Shown here in pieces: positions 646 to 13,775 of a stretch of 20,747 nucleotides of DNA. Under the pieces are notes generated by a model. That model made no database searches. It was not told where the DNA came from and saw only the letters and a list, made by a program, of their open reading frames with translations. Both the position numbers and the translations under genes were made by a program. The stretch lies in contig JAHIVS010000144.1 in NCBI GenBank assembly GCA_018816605.1, positions 1-20,747 on the forward strand, written 5' to 3'. Positions within the stretch are counted from its first letter, which is position 1; every line of letters starts with the position of its first letter. The DNA is from Pseudomonadota bacterium (GTDB lineage: Bacteria; Desulfobacterota; Desulfobacteria; Desulfobacterales; Desulfobacteraceae).

Positions 646-1203
646 ATGACGCAAACCAATTCCTTTCTCAAGGACAAACACATTCTGGCTGTGGACGATG
701 AATGGGATGTGATTGAAACCATAGAGGAAATTCTTGATCCGGCAAAGGTTGATGTGGCGCAGGACTATGAAACCGCCTCACAAATGATCCTTCAGACCCG
801 TTACGATCTGGCCATCCTCGATATCATGGGCGTAAACGGGATTAAACTTCTGGAAGAATGTGTGCGACGGGGTATTCCGGCTGTGATGCTCACTGCCAAT
901 TCACTGAACCCGGAATCCCTGATGGAATCCATTAAAAAAGGGGCCATCTCCTACCTGTCCAAGGAGCATTTAAGCGAGCTTGATGCTCTGATCACCGATC
1001 TTCTAGGGGCCCACAATAAGGGGAAACCCACATGGAAGCTGTTGTTTGAAAAACTGGGCAGCCACTTCAACCTGCGTTTCGGCAACAATTGGAAGGAAAA
1101 TGATCAGGCCTTCTGGGATGATTTTGAAAAAAACTGGAAAATTTCAAAAGGAATCCAGGAGAGGCTTCTCCATGATCCGAAAATTGTCGACAAGGGCATT
1201 TAA
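646..1203 (+). CDS. Single-receiver response regulator with a C-terminal extension
   Basis: This 185-residue protein has a CheY-like receiver over residues 11-115. All the key residues are present: the acidic pair D17-D18, phospho-acceptor D59 (LAILD), T83 (VMLT) and K106 (YLSK). It should be phosphorylated by a histidine kinase encoded elsewhere, since none is in the window. Residues 120-185 form a charged extension rich in Trp and Phe (WKLLFEKLG, FWDDFEKNW). It has no recognisable helix-turn-helix, GGDEF, EAL or HD motif, so the output is unknown and probably works by protein contact. The ATG follows GGGAG (633-637) at a spacing of 8. A strong hairpin terminator lies just downstream, so this is a single-gene unit. 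The receiver assignment is secure; the function is not. Confidence 0.9.
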   Translation: MTQTNSFLKDKHILAVDDEWDVIETIEEILDPAKVDVAQDYETASQMILQTRYDLAILDIMGVNGIKLLEECVRRGIPAVMLTANSLNPESLMESIKKGAISYLSKEHLSELDALITDLLGAHNKGKPTWKLLFEKLGSHFNLRFGNNWKENDQAFWDDFEKNWKISKGIQERLLHDPKIVDKGI

Positions 1204-1304: not shown

Positions 1305-2597
1305 TTAATAATATCCGAACAGCTTGGGCAAAAAGAGCACTATACTTGGACAATAGGTCAAAAAGAAAAGCACCCCGATCTGGATGACCAGAAACGGCAC
1401 GACGGCCCGGGACACATAAATAATATCCCGCTTGGCCAGGGCCCCCGTGATAAACAGGCTCACCCCCATAGGCGGGGTGCAGTAACCAATGGCAAGATTC
1501 ACGGTCATGATCAGTCCGAAATGCATGGGGTCGACATTAAAGGGCCCCAGAAGCGGAATAAAGACCGGTCCCAGAATTAATGTTGCAGAGATAATGTCCA
1601 TGAACATGCCGATAATCAGCAGCAATATATTCATGGCCAGCAAAAATACGATGGGAGAACTGATATTGGCCACCACTATCTCGGCCACCCGGTTGGGGAT
1701 GTTCTCAAAGGTCAGATACCGGCCGAAACAGGTTGCCGAGGCCACAATCAGCAACAGGGTCGCCGAGGTGACGGCAGAGCTTACGGTCACATTCTTGATG
1801 TCTGCAAAATTCATTGATTTATAAATATAATACTCAACAAAAAACGCATACACGCTGGCCACAACCGCAGCCTCATTGGCAGTAAACAAGCCTGAAAAAA
1901 TACCGCCGAATATGATCACAATGAGCATGACCGCCCAGAACCCTTCCTTGAAAATATGGAAAAGCTGGTGGAAGTCCGGGGCCGGAAGCCGCTGGATGTC
2001 CCCTCTTTTTCGATAGAGCAGAAAGGTATAAATACAAACACAGATGATAATCAAAATGCCGGGAACAAATCCCGTGATGAACAACCCTTCCAGGGACTGG
2101 TTGCTGATCATGGAATAAAAGATCATGGCAATACTCGGGGGAATGATGACCCCGAGGTTGGGGGAGGTGGTCATCAGTCCCAGGGTATAATCTTCATCAT
2201 ATCCGTTTTTGATAAGGGCCGGAATCATAAACCCGCCCAATGCCACCACCGTTGCAACCGTTGATCCGGATATGGCACCGAACAGACCGCAGCCGATGAC
2301 CCCTGCCATACCCAATCCCCCTGGCAGCCAGCTGACCAGGGCATTGGCCAGATTCATCAGCTTTTCAACCATTTTCCCCTTGGCCATGATATTCCCGCAA
2401 AGAATAAAAAACAGCACCACCACAAGGGCAAAACTGTCAAGACTTCGAAACAGGGTCTGGGCCAGAAGTGCCAGGGGCATGTCCTGGAAAAAAACAAATC
2501 CGATGCTTGCCGTAAAGAAAAGGCAAAGGAAAACCGGCACATAGGTACTCATGAGCCCCAGAAGGACAACTAGAATAATCAAATCACTCATCTGCAT
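1305..2597 (-). CDS. dctM: TRAP transporter large permease subunit DctM
   Basis: This 430-residue hydrophobic protein is the size of the ion-translocating DctM subunit of tripartite ATP-independent periplasmic transporters. It should span the inner membrane about twelve times and use a sodium or proton gradient. Family-like stretches include GxxFGAISGSTVATVVALG (near residues 103-121), the PNLGVIIPPSIAMIFYS segment (near 146-162), FxGLFTANEAAVVA, and the C-terminal NLAIGYCTPPMGVSLF. The ATG at 2597 (MQMSDL) sits 18 bases after dctQ, so the two permease subunits are translationally close. It is the last gene of the leftward operon, and the bidirectional terminator follows the stop. Substrate cannot be read from this subunit. 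The operon suggests an aromatic amino acid, beta-amino acid or aromatic carboxylate. Confidence 0.95.
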   Translation of the reverse strand: MQMSDLIILVVLLGLMSTYVPVFLCLFFTASIGFVFFQDMPLALLAQTLFRSLDSFALVVVLFFILCGNIMAKGKMVEKLMNLANALVSWLPGGLGMAGVIGCGLFGAISGSTVATVVALGGFMIPALIKNGYDEDYTLGLMTTSPNLGVIIPPSIAMIFYSMISNQSLEGLFITGFVPGILIIICVCIYTFLLYRKRGDIQRLPAPDFHQLFHIFKEGFWAVMLIVIIFGGIFSGLFTANEAAVVASVYAFFVEYYIYKSMNFADIKNVTVSSAVTSATLLLIVASATCFGRYLTFENIPNRVAEIVVANISSPIVFLLAMNILLLIIGMFMDIISATLILGPVFIPLLGPFNVDPMHFGLIMTVNLAIGYCTPPMGVSLFITGALAKRDIIYVSRAVVPFLVIQIGVLFFLTYCPSIVLFLPKLFGYY

Positions 2598-2615: not shown

Positions 2616-3098
2616 TTATCTGGATTTAAAATCTTGAATCATCACCTGAATCGTTCGGATACCTACCATCACGCCCATGACGGGCATGATGGCATAGATA
2701 ATCACAAGCGGGATCTGCATGATAATGGTTTTTTGATGGGTCATATATTGCAGATGGGTCATTTGGTACCCGTAATATACCATCATGCCTGAAAAAAGAA
2801 GCATCAGGAGGCTGGTATAAACCGTCAGGCCCGGTTTAAGCTTTGGGAAAAGCTGGACAACGGCATCAATTCGGATCATGGCCCTCTGATTGACCGCCAC
2901 ACTGGCACCCACAAAGGTAGAGTAAATAATCACGATACGAACCAGTTCCTCACTCCAGGCCAGGGTGTAATTAAACCCATACCGCAATATCACGTTTGCA
3001 AAAAGAGACAGCAGCGCTGCAATGACAATGACAAAAAGTGTCCATTCTTCGATCCGGGTCACTATGGTGTCAAACTTTTTAAGCATTTTCCCAAGCAT
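2616..3098 (-). CDS. dctQ: TRAP transporter small permease subunit DctQ
   Basis: This 160-residue inner-membrane protein has four predicted membrane segments (about residues 20-40, 50-70, 93-112 and 128-150). It also carries the family-type phrase LAWSEELVRIVIIYSTFVGAS after the second segment, where DctQ proteins have a conserved W-x-E-E motif. DctQ pairs with DctM to form the membrane domain that receives substrate from the periplasmic DctP protein. An AGGA lies about 8 bases before the ATG. The gene sits 45 bases after dctP and 18 bases before dctM, in the standard P-Q-M order. Confidence 0.93.
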   Translation of the reverse strand: MLGKMLKKFDTIVTRIEEWTLFVIVIAALLSLFANVILRYGFNYTLAWSEELVRIVIIYSTFVGASVAVNQRAMIRIDAVVQLFPKLKPGLTVYTSLLMLLFSGMMVYYGYQMTHLQYMTHQKTIIMQIPLVIIYAIMPVMGVMVGIRTIQVMIQDFKSR

Positions 3099-3143: not shown

Positions 3144-4220
3144 TTATTTCAGTGAATCCTGAACTTCTTTCAGGAAATCAGCCGGTTTATAGGTATCGCC
3201 AGGATAAATATGGTTGATTTCAGGGGCATATTTCTCATAGGTTCCCTTACTCTGCTCGGCCAAGGTTGCCATGTCCCCTTCGGACAGCTGGAAAAACTCA
3301 ACCCCTGCCGCTTTTGCGGCTTCGATATTGGTGTTCTCTTCGGTCAAAGATTTTACCCTGCTCGCAGCGCAGATATCGTGAACACTTGCGACAAAGGTCT
3401 CTCTCAAGTCGGCCGGAAGGCTTGCCAGCCATGCTTTGTTAAAAATCCAGATAAAAAGACCCTGGGCATAATTGATCTGGGTAAAATACTTGGCAACTTC
3501 AAATTTTTTGGTCACATTGCAGACCGTAAGGGTATGATCAAGGCCGGTAATGACGCCCTGCTTCAGGGCAACAGGTACATCGGGCCAGGGCATGGAAACA
3601 GGATTGAATCCCCAGTTTCTGTAACTGAGCTGATTAACGGCGGCTTCCGCGATTCTGAATTTGATTTTTTTGGCATCTTCAATGTTTCGAACCGGCTCGG
3701 TTGTGGCCCATCCATAGTTACCATAACCGGTAATATCCAATCCGGTTATCCCCTGGTGATCCATGGCCATGAGAAAATGGTTGAACAATTGTTTGTTATT
3801 GATGAAATTTTCCAGTTTTTCAAAGGAATTCACAAGAAAAGGAAGATTGACAACGCCGAATCTCGGGCCCAGGTTTGTGGCAGCCACCGAAGAGACGCCC
3901 ATACCCTGAATGGCTCCCATCTGAACCATGTTGAGAACTTCCACCTCTCCGCCCAGCATGGAGAAGGGTTTAAAATCCACATAAATTTTACCATTGGTCC
4001 TTTTCCAGACCTCATCCCGGATTTCAAAACCCGCCAGGGTTCCCACAAGACCCGGGGTGGATACATTGGAAACAATACATTTGTACTCGGCACCCGCGGG
4101 GTCGAAATCGGGTTTCCATTTGTCCAGGGAGGGGGGTGCTTTAGCGAGAACAGGAGAAGTGAACATAAAAGATCCCACTATTAAAACCAGCACTAATAGT
4201 AAAAATGTCCGCATTTTCAT
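3144..4220 (-). CDS. dctP: TRAP transporter substrate-binding protein DctP
   Basis: This 358-residue periplasmic solute-binding protein has a clear signal peptide (MKMRTFLLLVLVLIVGSFMF..., cleavage probably after A26). The mature chain follows the DctP fold. It includes a GGEVEVLNMVQMGAIQGMGV segment near residue 90 and a KIKFRIAEA segment whose Arg matches the conserved carboxylate-binding Arg of the family. It has many aromatic residues around the expected cleft, such as YGNYGW and NYAQGLFIWIF. The protein should capture an organic carboxylate and pass it to DctQM. AAAGGAA lies ahead of the ATG. It is separated from the upstream ligase gene by 192 bases, the largest gap within the operon, holding a hairpin and a possible promoter. 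An aromatic acid or amino acid is an inferred substrate only. Confidence 0.93.
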   Translation of the reverse strand: MKMRTFLLLVLVLIVGSFMFTSPVLAKAPPSLDKWKPDFDPAGAEYKCIVSNVSTPGLVGTLAGFEIRDEVWKRTNGKIYVDFKPFSMLGGEVEVLNMVQMGAIQGMGVSSVAATNLGPRFGVVNLPFLVNSFEKLENFINNKQLFNHFLMAMDHQGITGLDITGYGNYGWATTEPVRNIEDAKKIKFRIAEAAVNQLSYRNWGFNPVSMPWPDVPVALKQGVITGLDHTLTVCNVTKKFEVAKYFTQINYAQGLFIWIFNKAWLASLPADLRETFVASVHDICAASRVKSLTEENTNIEAAKAAGVEFFQLSEGDMATLAEQSKGTYEKYAPEINHIYPGDTYKPADFLKEVQDSLK

Positions 4221-4412: not shown

Positions 4413-5993
4413 TCAAACCAGCTGTTTAAATGCCTCCTTCCGTCCGGTAAACTTCTCCCGCAGCTGGGGCTTCATTAATTTTCCCGTTGGGTTACGGGGT
4501 ACCTGGTCAAAAATGACTTTTCTGGGTACCTTGTACAATGAAAGTTTTGATTTGGCAAATTCAATAATCTGTTCTTCACTCAAACTTCTACCTTCTTTTA
4601 TCTGGACAACCGCCAGAACGATTTCCACCAGCCGGTCATCGGGATATCCGATACAGGCGACATCCTCAATATCCGGATGGTCCATGAGGGCATCTTCTAT
4701 TTCCACGGGGAAAATATTTTCGCCGCCACTGGTAATCATGTCCTTCATACGGTCCACAATATAAAAATATCCGTCTTTGTCTTTCTTTAATAGATCTCCT
4801 GTGTAAAGCCAACCATTTTTTAAGGTTTCATTTGTTTTTTCAGGATTGGAGTAATATTCCCGCATCATGCGCGGGGTTCTGAAGATCAATTCCCCCACCT
4901 CTCCATCGGGCAGTTCATTGCCCATGGGATCGGTAATTTTTGCCTCAACACCAAATGTGGGTTTCCCAATAGAGCCGGGCTTGGCAAGAACATCTTCCGG
5001 ATACAGGTTAAAGGTACCGCCGCCGCCGCCCTCGGTAATGCCATATATATTGGATACGGCACAGGGCAGTTTTTCAACCAAAAGCTTCATCACCTCAAAG
5101 GGAACCGGCTGGGCACCGATCTCCATATATTTCCAGGAGGAAAGATCAAAGGCTTCAAGGTCAAGGTTCCCTTTTTCAACGGCGCTTAAAATGGCAATGC
5201 CAATGGGCACCACAAAGAGCGTATCCGTGCATCTTTCGGCTGCAATGGCTTCAATGATCCATTTGGGATCCCTGAAATCCCGGATAATGGTGCCGCAGGC
5301 ACCGGTGGCATAAAAGGGCGCCCATAAAAACATGGTCCCGGAATGATACAGGGGCAGAAAAATCAGGTAGTTGTCGTCTTTCTGAACAAAATAGGTCATG
5401 CCGTTGCCAATGGCGGTATTGTTCAGGGAAAAATGTGTGTGCAGAACCGGTTTGGGTTTTCCCGTGGTACCCGAGGTGAACATCATGGCAAGGGAATGGT
5501 CTCTGTCCACTTCCACCAGGGCATCGGAGGTGTCGGCATACTCCTGGACCACTCTGAAATCAATGACATCGCCGGGAACCTCTTTTCCGATGCAGATGAA
5601 ATGCTGAACCGTGGTAAGCTTTTCCTGGATCGGCTGAACCACACCGATAAATTCTGCACCGAAAATAAAGACGTCCGGGTTGCAGACGCCGGCCGCAAAC
5701 AGAATATCAGAACTTTCAAACCTGAAATTCAGTGGCACAACCACTGCCCCCAGACGGATAATGGCAAAATAGGTGACCATCCATTCAAGGGAGTTGTTCT
5801 GGAGGTGCATGACAAAATCCCCGTGTTTAACCTTTAATTCCCTTGCCAGATAATTGGCAGTTCGATTGATCTCGTCATTAAATTCCTGCCAGGTAAAAGA
5901 GCGCCGGGTCCCATTGGCCGGGGCTCTTTCAATTAGGCAAACCTTATCAGGAATATGTCTTGCATGGATTGAAGCATAACCAGAGTAGTTCAA
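4413..5993 (-). CDS. AMP-forming acyl-CoA ligase (ANL superfamily)
   Basis: This 526-residue adenylate-forming enzyme converts a carboxylic acid, ATP and CoA to the acyl-CoA, AMP and pyrophosphate. All core motifs are visible: the phosphate loop MFTSGTTGKPKP, YGITEGGG, the YTGD hinge region followed by KDGYFYIVDRMKDMI, and the C-terminal NPTGK, whose Lys catalyses adenylation. The length fits medium-chain or aryl-CoA ligases rather than the usually longer acetoacetyl-CoA synthetases. The start is TTG (5993-5991), supported by AAGGAG about 8 bases upstream. It lies 90 bases after the BKACE gene. Possible substrates by context are acetoacetate released by BKACE, benzoate or a phenylpropanoid acid such as cinnamate. 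The sequence alone does not decide. The glycine-rich EGGGGG after the A5 motif is unusual. Confidence 0.9.
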   Translation of the reverse strand: MNYSGYASIHARHIPDKVCLIERAPANGTRRSFTWQEFNDEINRTANYLARELKVKHGDFVMHLQNNSLEWMVTYFAIIRLGAVVVPLNFRFESSDILFAAGVCNPDVFIFGAEFIGVVQPIQEKLTTVQHFICIGKEVPGDVIDFRVVQEYADTSDALVEVDRDHSLAMMFTSGTTGKPKPVLHTHFSLNNTAIGNGMTYFVQKDDNYLIFLPLYHSGTMFLWAPFYATGACGTIIRDFRDPKWIIEAIAAERCTDTLFVVPIGIAILSAVEKGNLDLEAFDLSSWKYMEIGAQPVPFEVMKLLVEKLPCAVSNIYGITEGGGGGTFNLYPEDVLAKPGSIGKPTFGVEAKITDPMGNELPDGEVGELIFRTPRMMREYYSNPEKTNETLKNGWLYTGDLLKKDKDGYFYIVDRMKDMITSGGENIFPVEIEDALMDHPDIEDVACIGYPDDRLVEIVLAVVQIKEGRSLSEEQIIEFAKSKLSLYKVPRKVIFDQVPRNPTGKLMKPQLREKFTGRKEAFKQLV

Positions 5994-6083: not shown

Positions 6084-7019
6084 TCAAAAATTAACCTTAT
6101 CCAGTCCCTTAAGTCCGAGAATGACCCTTGCTTCATCGGAAGTGGCCGGCGCAAGGCTCATTTCCTTTGCGATGTTCTTGATCATGGTGACCTGATCGGC
6201 ACTGGCCTTTGCCATGATGCCCTTGCCCGCATAGATTGAATCTTCAAGTCCCACCCGGACATTCTGAGCCCCCATGGCAATGGCGGTGGTGGTGATGGGG
6301 ATCTGAAACCGCCCCCCGGCTGCCACGGACCAGGTAAAATTGTCTTCTCCCAGAACCTCCTTGGCTTCATCGTGAATGAGCACCAGGTGTTTGACAGAGG
6401 GCTTCATCCAGCCCACCATGGGACCAAATACAAACTGGAGATGAACCGGTGTTTTTACCAGATTTTCCTCCATGAGCCATTTAACATAGGAAACATGTCC
6501 CAGCTCATAGACTTCAATCTCCGGTTTGGTATCAATTTCAAGAAATGTTTTGGCATAGATAATGTCATCGTTAAAGGTGGGGCGGAAAGTCACATTTTTG
6601 CACAACTCCAGATATTCTTTTTCCCAGGCATGCTTGTAGGTTTTAAACCGGCCGGCAATCTGGAAAATACCAAAATTAAAGGGGGCCGGATCAAAGGAGC
6701 ACATTTCCGGTTCCAATCGCTTAATGGGAATCAGTTTTTCCTCTGTGGTCTGGTTCATCCCCCCCCCCGTGGTGGGCAGAAGGACCATGTTGCACCGTGC
6801 CTTGATTTTGGTATGGACTTCCACAAACAGATCCGGATCAGACACGGGCATGCCGTTTTCAGGATTGCGCACATGGATATGGGCAATGGCGGCCCCGGCT
6901 TCCCAGGCCCTCACCGCATCCTCTACGATTTCATCCGGGGTTATGGGAAGATAATCACTCATGGTCGGGATATGGACTGAGCCGGTAATCGCTGCGGTTA
7001 TAATAATTTTATCATCCAT
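6084..7019 (-). CDS. Beta-keto acid cleavage enzyme (BKACE, DUF849)
   Basis: This 311-residue TIM-barrel enzyme belongs to the family of 3-keto-5-aminohexanoate cleavage enzyme. The family transfers CoA from acetyl-CoA: beta-keto acid + acetyl-CoA gives a new acyl-CoA + acetoacetate. Visible hallmarks are the metal-binding H47-x-H49 in AHIHVR, the FNFG segment, WEKEYLE, and VRVGLED with likely metal ligand E259. The loop CSFDPAPFNFG differs from the small-residue loop I expect in other members (roughly SLNxGSxNFG). It lies near the substrate side, so it may reflect a different acyl group. The ATG follows AAGGAG at about 9 bases. The gene lies next to an aminotransferase and aminomutase that would make an aromatic beta-keto acid, so benzoylacetate or its hydroxy form is the inferred substrate. 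Confidence 0.92.
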   Translation of the reverse strand: MDDKIIITAAITGSVHIPTMSDYLPITPDEIVEDAVRAWEAGAAIAHIHVRNPENGMPVSDPDLFVEVHTKIKARCNMVLLPTTGGGMNQTTEEKLIPIKRLEPEMCSFDPAPFNFGIFQIAGRFKTYKHAWEKEYLELCKNVTFRPTFNDDIIYAKTFLEIDTKPEIEVYELGHVSYVKWLMEENLVKTPVHLQFVFGPMVGWMKPSVKHLVLIHDEAKEVLGEDNFTWSVAAGGRFQIPITTTAIAMGAQNVRVGLEDSIYAGKGIMAKASADQVTMIKNIAKEMSLAPATSDEARVILGLKGLDKVNF

Positions 7020-7084
7020 ATTGATGTTCTCCTTTAAAAAAATTCATTCACCAGAAAACCCCCAATAGCCATACCAAAGGTTCT

Positions 7085-7567
7085 CTACACCCTGTACTCC
7101 TCGTCCGGATCCAGCACAAAGATCTTCTTTTCCTTGACATTGTCGATGACAAAAGACGATTTAATGATCTGGATACCCTCAATCTGGGTGAGCTTTTTAT
7201 TCATGAACTCACCATAGGCCTTAATGTCCTTTGCAATGACCTTGAGTACAAAATCATTGGCACCGGCAATCTGATAACATTCCACCACTTCATCAATTTC
7301 AACAAACCGCTCTTTGATGCAGGCCACGGAAGAAAGATTGCTCAAACTTAAAGAAATACTGACAATGGCCATGATGGAAAACCCGATTTTTTCAGGATCC
7401 ACAATGGCCGTAAAATGGGAGATCACGCCTGAAAGCTCCAGCCGCTTAACCCGTTCAAGGGTTGCAGGGGCTGATATCCCAACTATTTTAGACAACCTGG
7501 AATTGGTTGTTTTTCCATTTGCCTGAAGCGTATTTAAAATCAGTTTATCGATTTTATCCAGAACCAT
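7085..7567 (-). CDS. Lrp/AsnC-family transcriptional regulator
   Basis: This 160-residue protein has an N-terminal helix-turn-helix (residues 1-60: LDKIDKLILNTLQANGK, RLSKIVGISAPATLERVKRLELSGVI). A C-terminal RAM domain (about 65-150) binds amino acids and drives assembly into multimers, with ECYQIAGANDFVLKV as the typical ligand-side strand. Lrp family members usually sense an amino acid and control its uptake or breakdown, and they often regulate their own gene. Its place inside the operon, between the aminotransferase and BKACE genes, suggests it senses phenylalanine, tyrosine or the beta-amino acid. The ATG is preceded by GAGGGG. The likely target is the promoter region at 10700-10770, which is AT-rich as such proteins prefer. 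Confidence 0.93.
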   Translation of the reverse strand: MVLDKIDKLILNTLQANGKTTNSRLSKIVGISAPATLERVKRLELSGVISHFTAIVDPEKIGFSIMAIVSISLSLSNLSSVACIKERFVEIDEVVECYQIAGANDFVLKVIAKDIKAYGEFMNKKLTQIEGIQIIKSSFVIDNVKEKKIFVLDPDEEYRV

Positions 7568-7608
7568 CTAGCCCCTCTTTCATCTTTTACATTAAATAAA
7601 AACTGCAC

Positions 7609-8955
7609 TTATAGGAGTAAATGGTTATATTTTTCTTCAATCAAAGGCAACAACTCTTTTAAGCTCGCATCTATTTTGTCCACCAGAATGTCGATTTCAG
7701 GCTCCGTCATTATGGTGGACAGGATGAACAGGCCTCTGGGAATGTTAAATACGCCCTTGGCCAACAGGGACAGGTGCATCAGGGCGTGCAGTTCTTCAAC
7801 CGATTCCTGCACATGGGCTGCCGTGGTAATTTTTTGATTGACAAAATGCAGGTTGATCAGGGAACCGATCTGGTGGGACTGGAGGCCCAGACCATTGTCT
7901 TTAAAGCTTTTTAAAAGCCCTGCCTGGAACCTGTCTCCCAAATGATTTATGGCGGACACCGCCTTTTCATCAAACTTTGACAAAGCGGCAAAGCCTGCCT
8001 GCATAACGGTTTCATACCCATTGAAAGTACCGGAATGATATAACGGCCTGTCCGTATGCTCATGGCAGAAAATATTCATGTACTCGTTCTTCCCGCCAAA
8101 GACACCAATGGGCAGCCCTCCACCCACCACTTTGCCCACCGTGGTGAGATCCGGAATCACATTAAAAAGCTTCTGGCATCCGCCGGTATCCACCCGGTAT
8201 GAAAAAATTTCATCAAATATCAAAATTACATTGTTGGCTGTCGTTACTTGCCGTGCCCTTTGAAGAAATCCCGGTTCCGGCAGCACCACCCCCCCTGCCC
8301 CCAGAAAGGGTTCCATGATCACCGCGGCAAGGGTGTCCGCATTCTCCCGGACCACCCGTTCAAGCGCATCCCCGTCGTTAAAGGGCACTTCCAGCATGTC
8401 CTGGGTCATGCCGGCAGGGATGCCGGCCGTAATCACATTTTTTTTGGTGGAGGCGGCCACACTATCGTGGGTGCCGTGGAAGCCGCCGGTCATTTTCAAA
8501 ATCTTGTCCCGACCCGTAATTGCCCTGGCCGTTCTCATGGCAAAAAGAGTGGCCTCGGTTCCGGAATTCACAAACCGCACCTTTTCGAATCCGGGGATCC
8601 TTTCACACAGAAGCCGGGCAAGACGATACTGGCCCTGGGTGGGGGTTGAATACTGGGACCCCCTTTCAATACCTTCCTGAACCGCCTTTACCACATCCGG
8701 ATCTCCATGCCCATGGACCAGTGCCCCATAGGCATTGGTCACATCCAAAAGGGCATGTCCTTCATGGGAATAAACATAGGCCCCTTTTCCATGGGAAATG
8801 TGAAGGGGGTAGGGCTTGAAATAACTTAAGCTTCGGGTGGCACCCCCCGGAATATAATGGATCAGGCGTTCATGGTGCACCTTGGAAAGGGGAAACTTTT
8901 CCTGGTATGCGGCAATGATTTTCCCTTGGATCTGAGATGATATCTGATGTGTCAT
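7609..8955 (-). CDS. Class III PLP aminotransferase, probably beta-amino-acid (beta-phenylalanine) aminotransferase
   Basis: This 448-residue fold-type I aminotransferase looks at first like glutamate-1-semialdehyde aminomutase. It fits the beta-phenylalanine aminotransferases (Variovorax/Mesorhizobium type) better. IPGGATRS carries R41, which aligns with the carboxylate-binding Arg of those enzymes. Other matching blocks are VRFVNSGTEA, GGFHGTHD, PDLTTVGK (PLP lysine K275), a PLP-ring Asp D248 in IFDE, HSGTFNG, IGSLINLHFV and the C-terminal PRGLFILS. The reaction would be beta-amino acid + 2-oxo acid to beta-keto acid + amino acid. The ATG lies 15 bases after the aminomutase stop, behind a run of G, so the two genes are tightly coupled. 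No haem-biosynthesis gene is nearby, which argues against the glutamate semialdehyde role. Exact substrate is inferred. Confidence 0.88.
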   Translation of the reverse strand: MTHQISSQIQGKIIAAYQEKFPLSKVHHERLIHYIPGGATRSLSYFKPYPLHISHGKGAYVYSHEGHALLDVTNAYGALVHGHGDPDVVKAVQEGIERGSQYSTPTQGQYRLARLLCERIPGFEKVRFVNSGTEATLFAMRTARAITGRDKILKMTGGFHGTHDSVAASTKKNVITAGIPAGMTQDMLEVPFNDGDALERVVRENADTLAAVIMEPFLGAGGVVLPEPGFLQRARQVTTANNVILIFDEIFSYRVDTGGCQKLFNVIPDLTTVGKVVGGGLPIGVFGGKNEYMNIFCHEHTDRPLYHSGTFNGYETVMQAGFAALSKFDEKAVSAINHLGDRFQAGLLKSFKDNGLGLQSHQIGSLINLHFVNQKITTAAHVQESVEELHALMHLSLLAKGVFNIPRGLFILSTIMTEPEIDILVDKIDASLKELLPLIEEKYNHLLL

Positions 8956-8970
8956 TCATCCCCCCTTTGT

Positions 8971-10593
8971 CTATTCTTTTGTATGAACAATCAAGAGTTC
9001 GCCCACGGCCGCCTCAACCCTTTGTACAAATTCCCCCGACGCAATCCGGGCCTTGAGTGCTTCCAGATGGTCAATATAAACCATGTCATAATCAAGGTAG
9101 GGAAGGGTTTCGCGAACCGCCTCGTGCATTATTTTTCCGGCCGTACTCAGTTTTTCAATACCCCTCAAATCTGCCGCCTGGGCAGCGCAAAGGAGTTCAA
9201 AGGAAAGAATGTGGTTGGTATTTTCCACAATCTTCCTGGCTTTTCTGGCGGCGATGAGACCAAAACTGACAATGTCCTGGAAATCGGCTGTGGAGGTAAT
9301 GGACTGGATGGAGGCCGGCACGGCCAGGGTCCTGTTCTCAGCCACAAGGGAGGTGGTCATGAACTGACCGCCCATGAGGCCCATGCGGACGCCGGTATCT
9401 TCCTTGCACAGGAAGGGCGGAAGGCCGGTACTGTGGGCGGAATCCATAAACCGGTCAATACGCCGGTCGCTGACCACGCCCAGATTGATCATGGCAATTG
9501 CCAGGCAGTCCATGACAAAGGAGATGGGCTGACCATGGAAATGGCCGTTATGGATAAAGGTGTTAAATTCGGTAAAGATCAGGGGATTGTCATTGCTGGA
9601 GTTCAGTTCCCGGAGCAGAACCTCCCGGGCATGGTTTACCGCTTCCTTGGTGGGGCCGACAAATTGCGGGGTACACCGGATGGAATAGGCATCTTCCACC
9701 GGAATATCGGCCACGGTAATGCCCTGGTGTTTTTTGAGCACTGCCTGGAGTTCCAGGGAAAGCTCCTGCTCGTCAATGGCCAGCTTGGAATCGCTCAATA
9801 GTTTGGTCAGATTCATGGCAGTGGCATACTGGCCGGGATGGTATTTTTGCTCATGGACCCGAAGATCAAAGGGATTGATACGTCCCATAAGGGTTTCAAT
9901 GGCAAAGGCGGCAATAATATCGGAATTTTTCAATGTATTGGTGGCTTCGTCAATCACGGTGCAACCAAGCCCGACCATGGCCGAGGTGCCGTTGATCAGA
10001 GAAAGGCCTTCCTTGGCGTTGAGATACATGAGCTCAACCCCGGCCTTTTCCATGGCCTCTTTACCCGGCATCACCTCGCCGTTTATCCGGGCCTTCCATT
10101 CGCCGAAGGCGACACTGGCGATACATCCCAGGGGTCCCAGATCTCCGCTGGTTCCCAGGGAGCCTTTCCTGGGAATCAAAGGGAAGACGTGTTTGTTGAT
10201 CATGTCCAGATAAATCCTGAGGTTTTTTTCCTTGATGCCGGAATAGCCGCGGCAAAGGGAATTGGCCCGGGCAATCATGAATTTTCTGACAAGGGTGTCT
10301 TCAAAGGGTTTGCCCACCTGGGTGGTGATGCTCCGGACCAGGTTTTTCTGGAAATCATTGTCCCGTTCCTTGGGCAGCAGATGATCCACAAGGCCGCCGC
10401 AACTGGTATTTACGCCGTAGATGCACCGCTCTTCATTTGCCCAATCCTCCACCAGTTTTCGACAGTCCCGGATTTTGGGCCAGTTTTTTTCCGCTACTTC
10501 AACCTTTATGGACAGATCATTTCCTGCTGTCATCAATTCTTCAATGGTCATTGAATATCCGTCAAGAACCAGTGTTTTCCCTTTTATCGGCAT
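8971..10593 (-). CDS. MIO-type phenylalanine aminomutase/ammonia-lyase (EncP/AdmH-like)
   Basis: This 540-residue member of the histidine/phenylalanine ammonia-lyase superfamily builds its MIO cofactor from T148-S149-G150 (GSLGTSGDLGPL), where most members have Ala-Ser-Gly. The TSG version, the NTSxGG segment after catalytic Y59 (IYGVNTSCGG), KEGLSLINGTS, SSNDNP, NGHFHGQ, GLMGGQFMT and STADFQDIVSFG all match my recollection of the bacterial phenylalanine aminomutase group of EncP and AdmH. That group interconverts L-phenylalanine and (S)-beta-phenylalanine with some cinnamate release. Histidine ammonia-lyase is less likely, because no other hut gene is present. It is the first gene of the operon, with GGAGG 5 bases before the ATG and a sigma70 promoter upstream. 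Phe against Tyr preference cannot be settled from sequence reading. Lyase activity giving cinnamate is the main alternative. Confidence 0.9.
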   Translation of the reverse strand: MPIKGKTLVLDGYSMTIEELMTAGNDLSIKVEVAEKNWPKIRDCRKLVEDWANEERCIYGVNTSCGGLVDHLLPKERDNDFQKNLVRSITTQVGKPFEDTLVRKFMIARANSLCRGYSGIKEKNLRIYLDMINKHVFPLIPRKGSLGTSGDLGPLGCIASVAFGEWKARINGEVMPGKEAMEKAGVELMYLNAKEGLSLINGTSAMVGLGCTVIDEATNTLKNSDIIAAFAIETLMGRINPFDLRVHEQKYHPGQYATAMNLTKLLSDSKLAIDEQELSLELQAVLKKHQGITVADIPVEDAYSIRCTPQFVGPTKEAVNHAREVLLRELNSSNDNPLIFTEFNTFIHNGHFHGQPISFVMDCLAIAMINLGVVSDRRIDRFMDSAHSTGLPPFLCKEDTGVRMGLMGGQFMTTSLVAENRTLAVPASIQSITSTADFQDIVSFGLIAARKARKIVENTNHILSFELLCAAQAADLRGIEKLSTAGKIMHEAVRETLPYLDYDMVYIDHLEALKARIASGEFVQRVEAAVGELLIVHTKE

Positions 10594-11765: not shown

Positions 11766-13775
11766 ATGAGGTCTAAGTTTTTTTTACTCACAACACTATT
11801 GGCCCTGATCTGCCTACCCATAATCGCACAATACGCCGGCGCCGGCACGACACCGGGCATGAACACCCAGACAATGCCGCCCCTGGTCCCTTCCCCGTCA
11901 TCCGGGCAGGAAAGCATTACCGCCACAGCCAATCGGTTTGCGACATCCTACAACCAGGCATTCCAGGACAAAGAAGACCTGACCGTCGCGGCATATAATA
12001 ACGATCATGAACGATCCCAGGAATTGATTCGTTCCTATAACCAGAACATGAGGGCTTCCAAGGACAGCTATCAAATTCTCCAGCAGATTGCAGAAAACCA
12101 GGGAACAGGAGATATCACCCTTTTTTTTCCGGAAAATTCAGCTGAAATACCGGAAAATGATTTTCAATATAACCGTCTTATCCGGTATCTGGATTCTTTG
12201 GAGAGAAATAACAGGGACAGAAAGCTGGTATTTATCATCATGGGAAGCGCATCTGCCACCGGAGAAGAGACCCACAACCGAATTTTATCCAGGAACCGGG
12301 CCAATGCGCCCATTCCCATTATGGACCAATACCTTATAAATGTTCCCCATTCATACCACAAAGTATATGGCACGGGCGAGGCAAACAGTCCCCAGGGGGA
12401 ACCCGAAGATATCAACAAACGCTATCGGTTTGTACGGATCATGGCCCTTTATGAGGATCTTGCGCCCACAATGACCGGAATGGCTCTCCCCATGGAACCT
12501 TCCCCCATGATGGGCCAGACCCTGCAAAGCCCGGCAATGGCCCAAAGAGTCCAGATCAATGAGTACATCAATCCCATTGGGATGAAATTCATCCGGGTTC
12601 CGGCCGGAACCTTTTCCATGGGAAGTCCGGATTCGGAAATACGAAGGGACACCAATGAAATCCTGCATACGGTAACCCTGACCCAGCCTTTTTATCTTCA
12701 AACCACGGAAGTCACCCAGCGCCAATGGCTGGCGGTCATGGGAGACCATCCCTCCCATTTTAAAAACTGCGGCATGGACTGCCCGGTGGAGAATGTCCGC
12801 TATTCAGATGTACAAAAATTTCTAAAACGGCTCAATGAAATGGAAAGCACGATTTACTACCGCCTGCCCACGGAAGCGGAATGGGAATATGCGGCCCGGG
12901 CCGGCACCCCATCGGCATTCTTTAACGGCCCCATGGTTGTGGAAGGCGATTTCAGCAGAAACCCATACCTGGATTCCGTGGGCTGGTATTATCGAAATGC
13001 CGACCACGCCCCCCACCTGGTTGCCCAGAAGTCGGCCAATGCCTGGGGATTTTATGACATGCACGGGAACGTGTGGGAATGGTGCTCCGACTGGCAGAGA
13101 CCCTATCCTTTCCAAGCCGAAATCGACCCCCAGGGTGCCGAGTTCGGGGAAGCAAAAATCAGGCGGGGCGGCAGCTGGGCCCATTATCCGGAATACTGCA
13201 GGTCGGCCTACCGGTCCTGGTTTGATCCGGAAGACAGAAGCCCTGAAATCGGTTTCAGGGTTGCCATCACCAAACTGGAAAGGGTTGCCCAGCCGGCTCC
13301 CCCCCGTCCCATGCCGGCCCCCATGCCCGAACCGCCCCCCCTGCCCAAGCCTGTGGTTAAGGCAAAGCGTGTGGTTAAGAAGGACCTTGAACCCATTCCC
13401 ATGCCCGATCCGGCCCGGGTCACCCAGTGCATCCTGATCCGGGATATTTCCTTTGACCTGGATTCAAGCAAGATCAACAGCCGGATGATTCCCCTGATGG
13501 ACCTTGCGGTTGAACTGCTAAACAAATATGATGGGAAAATTGATCTGCACGGCCACACCTGTTCTCTGGGCTCCAAGCCGTACAACATGGATCTGGGATT
13601 AAGGCGGGCTGAATCGGTTAAGAATTACCTGGTATCCAAGGGCATCAATGAAAGCCGGATCACCACCAAATCCTTTGGAGAAGAAGCCCCCAAGTTCACC
13701 AATCATACAGAGGCCGGCCGCTCTTTAAACCGACGGGTGGAAATCCTGCTCCATGGATTCACCAATGAACAATAG
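11766..13775 (+). CDS. Exported FGE/SUMF1-domain protein with OmpA-like domain(s)
   Basis: This 669-residue protein starts with a signal peptide (MRSKFFLLTTLLALICLPII). Residues about 116-225 look like a diverged OmpA-like domain (DITLFFPENSAEIPEND, RNRANAP, KRYRFVRIM). Residues about 267-500 form a formylglycine-generating-enzyme-like domain, with GMKFIRVPAGTFSMGS, TEVTQRQW, RLPTEAEWEYAARAG, DMHGNVWEWCSDW, RRGGSW and IGFRVA. A Pro-rich linker (about 510-550) leads to a clear C-terminal OmpA peptidoglycan-binding domain (about 554-665: ISFDLDSSKIN, LHGHTCSLG, RRAESVKNYLVSKGI, NRRVEIL). Only one Cys stands where true FGE has its copper-binding pair (RGGSWAHYPEYC), so sulfatase maturation is unlikely. 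It is probably a cell-wall-anchored envelope protein. AAGGAG precedes the ATG, and it heads the rightward gene cluster. Confidence 0.88.
   Translation: MRSKFFLLTTLLALICLPIIAQYAGAGTTPGMNTQTMPPLVPSPSSGQESITATANRFATSYNQAFQDKEDLTVAAYNNDHERSQELIRSYNQNMRASKDSYQILQQIAENQGTGDITLFFPENSAEIPENDFQYNRLIRYLDSLERNNRDRKLVFIIMGSASATGEETHNRILSRNRANAPIPIMDQYLINVPHSYHKVYGTGEANSPQGEPEDINKRYRFVRIMALYEDLAPTMTGMALPMEPSPMMGQTLQSPAMAQRVQINEYINPIGMKFIRVPAGTFSMGSPDSEIRRDTNEILHTVTLTQPFYLQTTEVTQRQWLAVMGDHPSHFKNCGMDCPVENVRYSDVQKFLKRLNEMESTIYYRLPTEAEWEYAARAGTPSAFFNGPMVVEGDFSRNPYLDSVGWYYRNADHAPHLVAQKSANAWGFYDMHGNVWEWCSDWQRPYPFQAEIDPQGAEFGEAKIRRGGSWAHYPEYCRSAYRSWFDPEDRSPEIGFRVAITKLERVAQPAPPRPMPAPMPEPPPLPKPVVKAKRVVKKDLEPIPMPDPARVTQCILIRDISFDLDSSKINSRMIPLMDLAVELLNKYDGKIDLHGHTCSLGSKPYNMDLGLRRAESVKNYLVSKGINESRITTKSFGEEAPKFTNHTEAGRSLNRRVEILLHGFTNEQ

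Follow-up and report, generated by a model that had tools for sequence, protein, structure and literature searches.

Introduction

The anaerobic degradation of phenylalanine described in Aromatoleum and Thauera proceeds via phenylpyruvate, phenylacetyl-coenzyme A (CoA) and phenylglyoxylate to benzoyl-CoA. The aminomutases AdmH and EncP serve antibiotic biosynthesis, and the beta-phenylalanine aminotransferases with the structures 4ao9 and 2yku belong to aerobic users of beta-amino acids. Lysine fermentation employs lysine 2,3-aminomutase, a later loss of the beta-amino group, and a beta-keto acid ahead of Kce. Kce itself performs a step of the beta-keto acid cleavage enzyme (BKACE) type giving an acyl-CoA and acetoacetate, as described in PMC4922564. 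Benzoylacetate is described as an intermediate of anaerobic acetophenone degradation (PMC5214803). In this study, we analyzed a stretch of 20,747 nucleotides (hereafter, the window) from a member of Desulfobacteraceae (contig JAHIVS010000144.1 of assembly GCA_018816605.1), in which a 4-methylideneimidazole-5-one (MIO) aminomutase, a class III aminotransferase and a BKACE are encoded side by side. These genes probably form the core of a catabolic operon leading from L-phenylalanine to (S)-beta-phenylalanine, benzoylacetate, and finally benzoyl-CoA and acetoacetate, where the substrates, products, stereochemistry and direction of flux are what we infer from the sequence.

Phenylalanine is a common aromatic compound in the protein that reaches marine sediments. 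If the assignment is true, marine sulfate reducers would possess a complete route of a few enzymes to benzoyl-CoA, through which aromatic compounds are degraded in the absence of oxygen. It would also give BKACE a natural aromatic role, and the route could be tested in a cultured organism.

Organization and conservation of the operon

The scan of 17 frames of the window against Pfam, NCBIfam and other profile models located a unit on the minus strand, consisting of the genes for the MIO aminomutase, the class III aminotransferase, an Lrp regulator, the BKACE, an acyl-CoA ligase, and a tripartite ATP-independent periplasmic (TRAP) transporter. The unit was regarded as operon-like because the intergenic gaps, calculated from the coordinates of the open reading frames, were 15, 41, 65, 90, 192, 45 and 18 bases. 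The first-pass annotation of the window had placed the three core genes in one operon in the order of the reactions, and the matches to the respective Pfam models, all far over the cut-offs (Table 1), agreed with this, while the Lrp, ligase and transporter genes had been omitted from its list.

A scan of species genomes identified 44 loci, of which 42 were from sulfate reducers and two from gammaproteobacterial metagenome-assembled genomes (MAGs; L037 and L044). All 42 sulfate-reducer loci came from genomes of the family that includes Desulfospira joergensenii (G020), with Desulfobacula, Desulfotignum and Desulfospira as the named genera; two of the loci (L040 and L042) came from the same assembly. 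The closest one, L001 from a Desulfobacula sp. MAG, had a mutase with 98% identity and was syntenic over the window. In all 31 sulfate-reducer loci having at least 3.7 kb downstream of the mutase, the transaminase and BKACE genes followed on the same strand, so that the three-family operon read from a single stretch recurred across the genomes. The remaining 11 of the 42 loci were dropped due to contig ends within this distance; four of them (L016, L028, L031 and L039) still showed the transaminase and BKACE, and the others ended earlier. As the core was kept in 31/31 loci with enough DNA, the arrangement is not explained by chance. The Lrp gene was present in 28 of these 31 loci, the exceptions being L017, L027 and L038.

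Among 395 sampled genomes of the phylum, the mutase search at E 1e-115 matched G020 only. Protein searches found more distant mutase relatives in Acidiferrobacteraceae and Thermodesulfobacteriota. The longest contigs of the mutase and BKACE relatives in Thermodesulfobacteriota were both 26,041 bases, which suggests that the two genes may lie on one contig.

In the proposed route, the TRAP system would import phenylalanine or related aromatic acids. The mutase would move the amino group of L-phenylalanine to form (S)-beta-phenylalanine, the transaminase would hand this group to 2-oxoglutarate, leaving benzoylacetate, and the zinc-containing BKACE would exchange benzoylacetate and acetyl-CoA for benzoyl-CoA and acetoacetate. 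Benzoyl-CoA would then go into the BamB/BamA pathway, and acetoacetate would be reactivated, perhaps by the ligase of the operon.

The claim that no described pathway has this combination stood within the literature searched by title and abstract opening, in which no description of a mutase-transaminase-BKACE route was found among the papers listed; this search did not include the 2013 study on Desulfobacula toluolica Tol2. In one source, the Tol2 mutase is labelled Pal, a predicted phenylalanine ammonia-lyase, and the BKACE a conserved uncharacterized DUF849 protein, suggesting that the route may not have been proposed in that study. The locus appears to encode a pathway assembled from known enzyme families in a combination not found described, with strong genomic support.

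Assignment of the three core enzymes

Eight profile models matched the mutase, and the phenylalanine aminomutase model TIGR04475 ranked at the top with 672.6 bits. Two histidine ammonia-lyase models remained under their cut-offs (483.7 of 524 and 455.4 of 539.15 bits). The closest solved relative was AdmH (3unv, 477.6 bits), followed at approximately 351-354 bits by tyrosine aminomutase and the chains 3kdy/3kdz. The latter two are labelled histidine ammonia-lyase in the PDB table; their length and score match the tyrosine aminomutase entries, and we take them to be tyrosine aminomutase. The other histidine ammonia-lyase chains scored at most 277.5 bits. The identity as histidine ammonia-lyase, which would have contradicted the first-pass annotation, was rejected on the model scores together with the presence of a separate paralogue (approximately 34-41% identity) in many genomes of the family.

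Residue conservation was counted only in sequences covering 90% of the length, which were 39 mutases, 41 transaminases and 36 BKACEs from 47 sources including the window. Ser149 and Gly150 of the MIO-forming triad were found in 39/39 mutases and Thr148 in 38/39. The DFQD motif of AdmH, including F438, was likewise kept in all 39. The position of F438 is presumably that of F455 in the Pantoea enzyme (PaPAM), and the Phe of this motif steers the reaction towards the (S)-beta product.

It is unlikely that the MIO enzyme is instead a phenylalanine ammonia-lyase, the cinnamate from which would be activated by the ligase of the operon and beta-oxidized to benzoyl-CoA, leaving the transaminase and BKACE for another substrate. 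MIO mutases can release cinnamate, the Tol2 protein bears the Pal label, and D. multivorans (Desulfococcus multivorans) has been proposed to degrade cinnamate via a CoA ligase and a thiolase (PMC5109826). However, such a scheme gives no role to the transaminase-BKACE pair that is invariant in the 31 loci, and in L038 the mutase, transaminase and BKACE genes occur without an adjoining ligase gene. The best scores obtained with the aminomutase model and AdmH also argue for a mutase.

Less likely still is the same chemistry with tyrosine as the main substrate, resulting in 4-hydroxybenzoyl-CoA, although tyrosine aminomutases are related to the mutase and 4-hydroxybenzoylacetate is on record as a BKACE substrate. 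The position of I89 was occupied by Ile in 34 and by Val in five of the 39 mutases, in place of the His of the tyrosine-type chain 3kdy, which we assume to read the ring hydroxyl of tyrosine. Tyrosine was thus disfavoured by I89, and AdmH gave a far higher score than the tyrosine-type chains.

The solved chains nearest to the transaminase were 6k8h (290.5 bits), glutamate-1-semialdehyde aminomutase (GSAM) 3k28 (261.2 bits), and the beta-transaminases 2yku (255.2 bits) and 4ao9 (253.3 bits). R36 of 6k8h, the counterpart of R41, is suggested to hold the substrate carboxylate (PMC10589169). Both R41 and R407 were invariant in 41/41 transaminases, including the two gammaproteobacterial ones. As a two-arginine test for an aromatic beta-amino-acid transaminase, these residues were compared with 4ao9 and 2yku, and both were found in common.

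The solved chains nearest to the BKACE were 3lot, 3e02, 3e49 and 8rio, and from the family we take H47, H49 and E259 to be the zinc ligands. The score of 210.0 of 382 bits with the Lys_ferment_KCE model indicated a different BKACE subgroup, and the cut-off of NF053538, a model for BKACE acting on 3,5-dioxohexanoate, was not reached either (336.6 versus 430 bits). E171 is described as the catalytic base of BKACE15, probed by mutation, R254 is also named there, and the enzyme is placed in the context of aromatic degradation (PMC11961710). A benzoylacetate-active BKACE subgroup is on record, in keeping with the aromatic beta-keto acid activity that the first-pass annotation predicted for the enzyme of the operon.

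The segment SFDPAPFNF at residues 108-116 of the BKACE (window 6672-6698) stands where the solved relatives have an NMG segment. S(F/Y)DPAP was seen in 94 of 120 BKACE relatives, among the matches listed. The segment may serve to recognize BKACEs of this substrate group.

Table 1. Coordinates of the genes and key codons in the window and of the two gammaproteobacterial gene clusters
Feature	Sequence	Position	Strand	Remarks
MIO aminomutase, AdmH/EncP type, 540 aa	window	8971-10593	-	PF00221 Lyase_aromatic, 523.7 bits; predicted L-Phe -> (S)-beta-Phe
Codons of MIO-forming triad T148-S149-G150	window	10144-10152	-	Xaa-Ser-Gly triad of MIO enzymes
Codon of F438	window	9280-9282	-	Same as AdmH residue in DFQD (alignment)
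Codon of I89	window	10327-10329	-	Aligned with His of 3kdy and Val of AdmH
Class III aminotransferase, 448 aa	window	7609-8955	-	PF00202 Aminotran_3, 187.4 bits; predicted beta-Phe + 2-oxoglutarate -> benzoylacetate + glutamate
Codon of R41	window	8833-8835	-	Proposed carboxylate-binding Arg; aligns with R36 of 6k8h
Codon of R407	window	7735-7737	-	Second Arg; common to 2yku and 4ao9 (PRG segment), absent from 6k8h and GSAM 3k28
BKACE (DUF849), 311 aa	window	6084-7019	-	PF05853, 289.1 bits (gathering 24.8 bits); predicted benzoylacetate + acetyl-CoA -> benzoyl-CoA + acetoacetate
Codons of H47-I-H49	window	6873-6881	-	Both His in 36/36 BKACEs
Codon of E169	window	6513-6515	-	Aligns with catalytic base E171 of BKACE15; 36/36
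Codons of R255-V-G-L-E259	window	6243-6257	-	R255 is counterpart of R254 of BKACE15; R255 and E259 in 36/36
Lrp/AsnC-family regulator, 160 aa	window	7085-7567	-	PF01037, PF13412; between transaminase and BKACE
AMP-forming acyl-CoA ligase, 526 aa	window	4413-5993	-	PF00501, 251.4 bits; TTG start
TRAP solute-binding protein DctP	window	3144-4220	-	PF03480
TRAP small permease DctQ	window	2616-3098	-	PF04290
TRAP large permease DctM	window	1305-2597	-	PF06808, TIGR00786
CheY-like response regulator	window	646-1203	+	Convergent to TRAP genes; weak response-regulator model matches
Mutase, PRK12582-type acyl-CoA ligase, thiolase, beta-type transaminase	L037	315-6377		Followed by D-amino acid dehydrogenase-like gene
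Mutase, PRK12582-type acyl-CoA ligase, thiolase, beta-type transaminase	L044	1-4898		Followed by GntR and TRAP genes

Benzoyl-CoA genes in the carrier genomes

BamA (TIGR03200) was detected over the cut-off in 32 of the 43 genomes holding a locus, including G001, the 98% relative of the window, and as fragments in six more; no match was found in the other five (G002, G030, G032, G040 and G042). The co-occurrence was then counted over 86 genomes of the family, with mutase orthologues of at least 84% identity (a few at 83%), BamA matches at E 1e-25, and fragments counted in both. Mutase and BamA were both present in 41 genomes, mutase only in five, BamA only in five, and neither in 35 (p = 2.1e-13). 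BamA exceeded the cut-off in 39/86 genomes.

Four genomes were joined to the 46 mutase carriers for their BKACE orthologue: G072, which also had the transaminase, Lrp and ligase genes; G073, with the transaminase and Lrp genes and a mutase fragment; G078; and G087, having the BKACE and ligase genes only. With these included, the four classes became 44, 6, 2 and 34, namely BamA in 44 of 50 operon carriers and in 2 of 36 non-carriers (Fisher p = 1.9e-15).

Benzoyl-CoA genes were also physically linked to the operon in three of the 27 loci with at least 5 kb upstream. In L017, the opposite strand carried BamB, scoring 1288.8 bits with structure 4z3w from Geobacter, together with a ferredoxin-like gene that we regard as BamC, at a distance of approximately 5 kb to the mutase. 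In L027, a BamC-like fragment, a 75% relative of the L017 ferredoxin, lay approximately 10 kb before the mutase, and BamB was found further on in this G027 contig; L017 and L027 count as one arrangement. In L038, BamA (476.2 of 464.45 bits) and BamQ (482.0 of 338.65 bits) were located approximately 4 and 7 kb before the mutase, respectively. The same search of all 44 loci and the window found no benzoyl-CoA genes inside the window itself. Next to BamQ, positions 565-2188 of L038 encode a thiolase along with a small protein, weakly similar to the benzoylsuccinyl-CoA thiolase BbsB/BbsA.

The genomes with the operon thus do hold benzoyl-CoA genes, one of the points on which the first-pass annotation depended. 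Together with the conserved core and the fixed catalytic residues, the co-occurrence with BamA and the linked genes support its interpretation of the operon as a candidate route from phenylalanine to benzoyl-CoA. The linkage indicates the use of carbon, which makes it very unlikely that the operon mainly serves to take up and consume aromatic beta-amino acids from the environment or to scavenge nitrogen; the transporter and the Lrp regulator would fit such a role, but cells living on ready-made beta-amino acids would have no use for an invariant alpha-to-beta mutase. The supply of a beta-amino acid to natural-product biosynthesis, the role of AdmH and EncP, is hardly credible even with the biosynthetic AdmH as the closest solved mutase, and was rejected, since the 17 scanned window frames contained no supporting genes such as nonribosomal peptide synthetase or polyketide synthase, the BKACE would remove the product, and the context is catabolic.

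Transporter, ligase and published physiology

The TRAP proteins of the operon in D. toluolica Tol2 (G079) were 90.2, 79.1 and 74.7% identical to those of D. multivorans (G249) for the M, P and Q components, respectively. An identity of 74-90% is stated between D. multivorans DctM4Q4P4 and Tol2 DctM9Q9P9, the latter of which supposedly imports phenylalanine or phenylacetate (PMC5109826). As the identities matched this published range, and the sole Tol2 DctP over the search threshold was that of the operon (five of 11 first-look candidates were scored), the transporter of the operon is very probably DctM9Q9P9 of D. toluolica.

The DctP search of the order gave matches in 120 of 389 genomes, 86 of which were outside the 50 carriers. 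Near relatives of the operon TRAP system were thus widespread in this order among genomes other than the known carriers, as in L137, L138 and L139, and stood beside ribosomal-protein-like genes in L137 and L139 as judged by eye. Four carrier loci (L011, L014, L029 and L032) had another TRAP system after the ligase in place of the window type, 71-73% alike among themselves. The CheY-like response regulator stays beside the TRAP genes in the loci of many relatives, and D. multivorans has a 59% relative of it (window 646-1203) close to its own TRAP genes, at which two histidine kinases are reported (PMC5109826). Elsewhere in the window (11766-13775), a sulfatase-modifying-factor-like domain and an OmpA domain were fused in one protein.

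The ligase of the operon may activate acetoacetate, because the BKACE would release acetoacetate in need of activation and a transferase of the succinyl-CoA:3-oxoacid CoA-transferase (SCOT) type is rare in the carriers. This transferase (TIGR02429) was found in 4/86 family genomes, three of them among the 50 carriers; at E 1e-30, D. toluolica gave no match, although atoAD is cited for it (PMC5109826), and the model may miss the type of transferase present there. The ligase may also be an aromatic-acid ligase, because its 71% relative in D. multivorans is located in the phenylacetate region, next to a second ligase; FadD4 (Dmul_C24830) is one of these two. That region is reported to be formed on phenylacetate and phenylpyruvate (PMC5109826). 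The first-pass annotation had argued that the route makes the CoA thioester without spending ATP. This was not upheld and the argument is weaker than stated, as acetoacetate needs reactivation, for which the ligase of the operon may pay.

One report states that D. toluolica Tol2 dispenses with PadB and PadEFGHI, and it describes the conversion of phenylglyoxylate to benzoyl-CoA in D. multivorans as unclear (PMC5109826). None of the 86 family genomes reached the PadI cut-off, and three came within 13 bits. The PadI-like protein of D. toluolica (G079:C1:4919431-4920741) was located approximately 20 kb from two BamB paralogues; the others were on G085:C9 and G017:C2.

Several observations weigh against the proposed route. 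The mutase missed the NCBIfam cut-off of TIGR04475 (672.6 versus 800 bits), and for the transaminase GSAM 3k28 scored slightly above 2yku and 4ao9. A motif of four positions has been proposed for aromatic beta-amino-acid transaminases (PMC10589169). At the three alignable positions (T38, Y47 and N70 of 6k8h), the window enzyme has Leu, His and Ala instead of the Val, Thr and Glu of the motif, a match of 0/3; the fourth position was outside the alignment, and the active enzyme 6k8h itself matches at 0/4. BamA at E 1e-25 was missing from six of the 50 carriers (G002, G030, G032, G040, G042 and G087). The co-occurrence with BamA within the family may be confounded by shared descent, to which physical linkage is less exposed. 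The ligase and TRAP genes also exist outside the operon, and the induction of the transporter is thus no proof of the route. In addition, the PadI-like proteins of D. toluolica (696.1 bits), G085 (693.9 bits) and G017 (687.1 bits) were just under the cut-off of 700, and the phenylglyoxylate route may still operate in these three.

The gammaproteobacterial version

As an instance independent of the sulfate reducers, the mutases of L037 and L044 showed 67-70% identity to the window type, and in both loci they were accompanied by ligase, thiolase and transaminase genes (Table 1). No BKACE was found in these stretches, the whole genomes G037 and G043 not having been searched for one. The ligase and thiolase are the predicted two-gene equivalent of the one-step cleavage by BKACE; beyond the common mutase and transaminase, the two versions would differ in the cleavage module.

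Among 41 genomes of that order, a full-length mutase was found in G037, while the partial gene of G043 was below the threshold but was seen on L044. BamA was present in G037 and G043 only, a pair that would be picked by chance once in 820 draws when kinship is ignored. Class I BcrC exceeded the cut-off of 421.15 bits in both genomes (663.1 and 659.4 bits, respectively), and BamB was not matched at E 1e-60. The replacement of BKACE by a ligase and a thiolase amounts to a natural experiment that bears on the intermediate required by the pathway.

Comparison with known systems

The proposed route shares its start and end, phenylalanine and benzoyl-CoA, with that of Aromatoleum and Thauera. The latter relies on alpha-deamination and decarboxylations, whereas the operon would use an aminomutase and C-C cleavage. 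Benzoylacetate is the intermediate proposed for the operon as well as that of acetophenone degradation, where it arises by carboxylation; the acetophenone route continues with a CoA ligase and a thiolase, resembling the gammaproteobacterial version. The mutase has the DFQD motif in common with AdmH, its closest solved relative, and is encoded in a catabolic-looking setting in contrast to the biosynthetic AdmH and EncP. The transaminase shares both arginines with the beta-phenylalanine aminotransferases 4ao9 and 2yku, although it is equally near or slightly nearer to GSAM enzymes.

Lysine fermentation follows the logic proposed for the operon, with an aminomutase, a beta-keto acid, and a BKACE yielding an acyl-CoA and acetoacetate. 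Unlike lysine fermentation, the operon would act on an aromatic substrate with a BKACE of a different subgroup, and it has an MIO mutase and a transaminase instead of the radical S-adenosylmethionine lysine mutase and the dehydrogenase. Taking both versions together, we lean, with some reserve, towards a second general plan for the anaerobic breakdown of aromatic amino acids, which would be the aromatic counterpart of lysine fermentation. An aminomutase and a beta-transaminase would be followed by a module for C-C cleavage that can be swapped, with BKACE used by sulfate reducers and CoA ligase with thiolase by gammaproteobacteria, and the product would feed a benzoyl-CoA reductase of either class II or class I.

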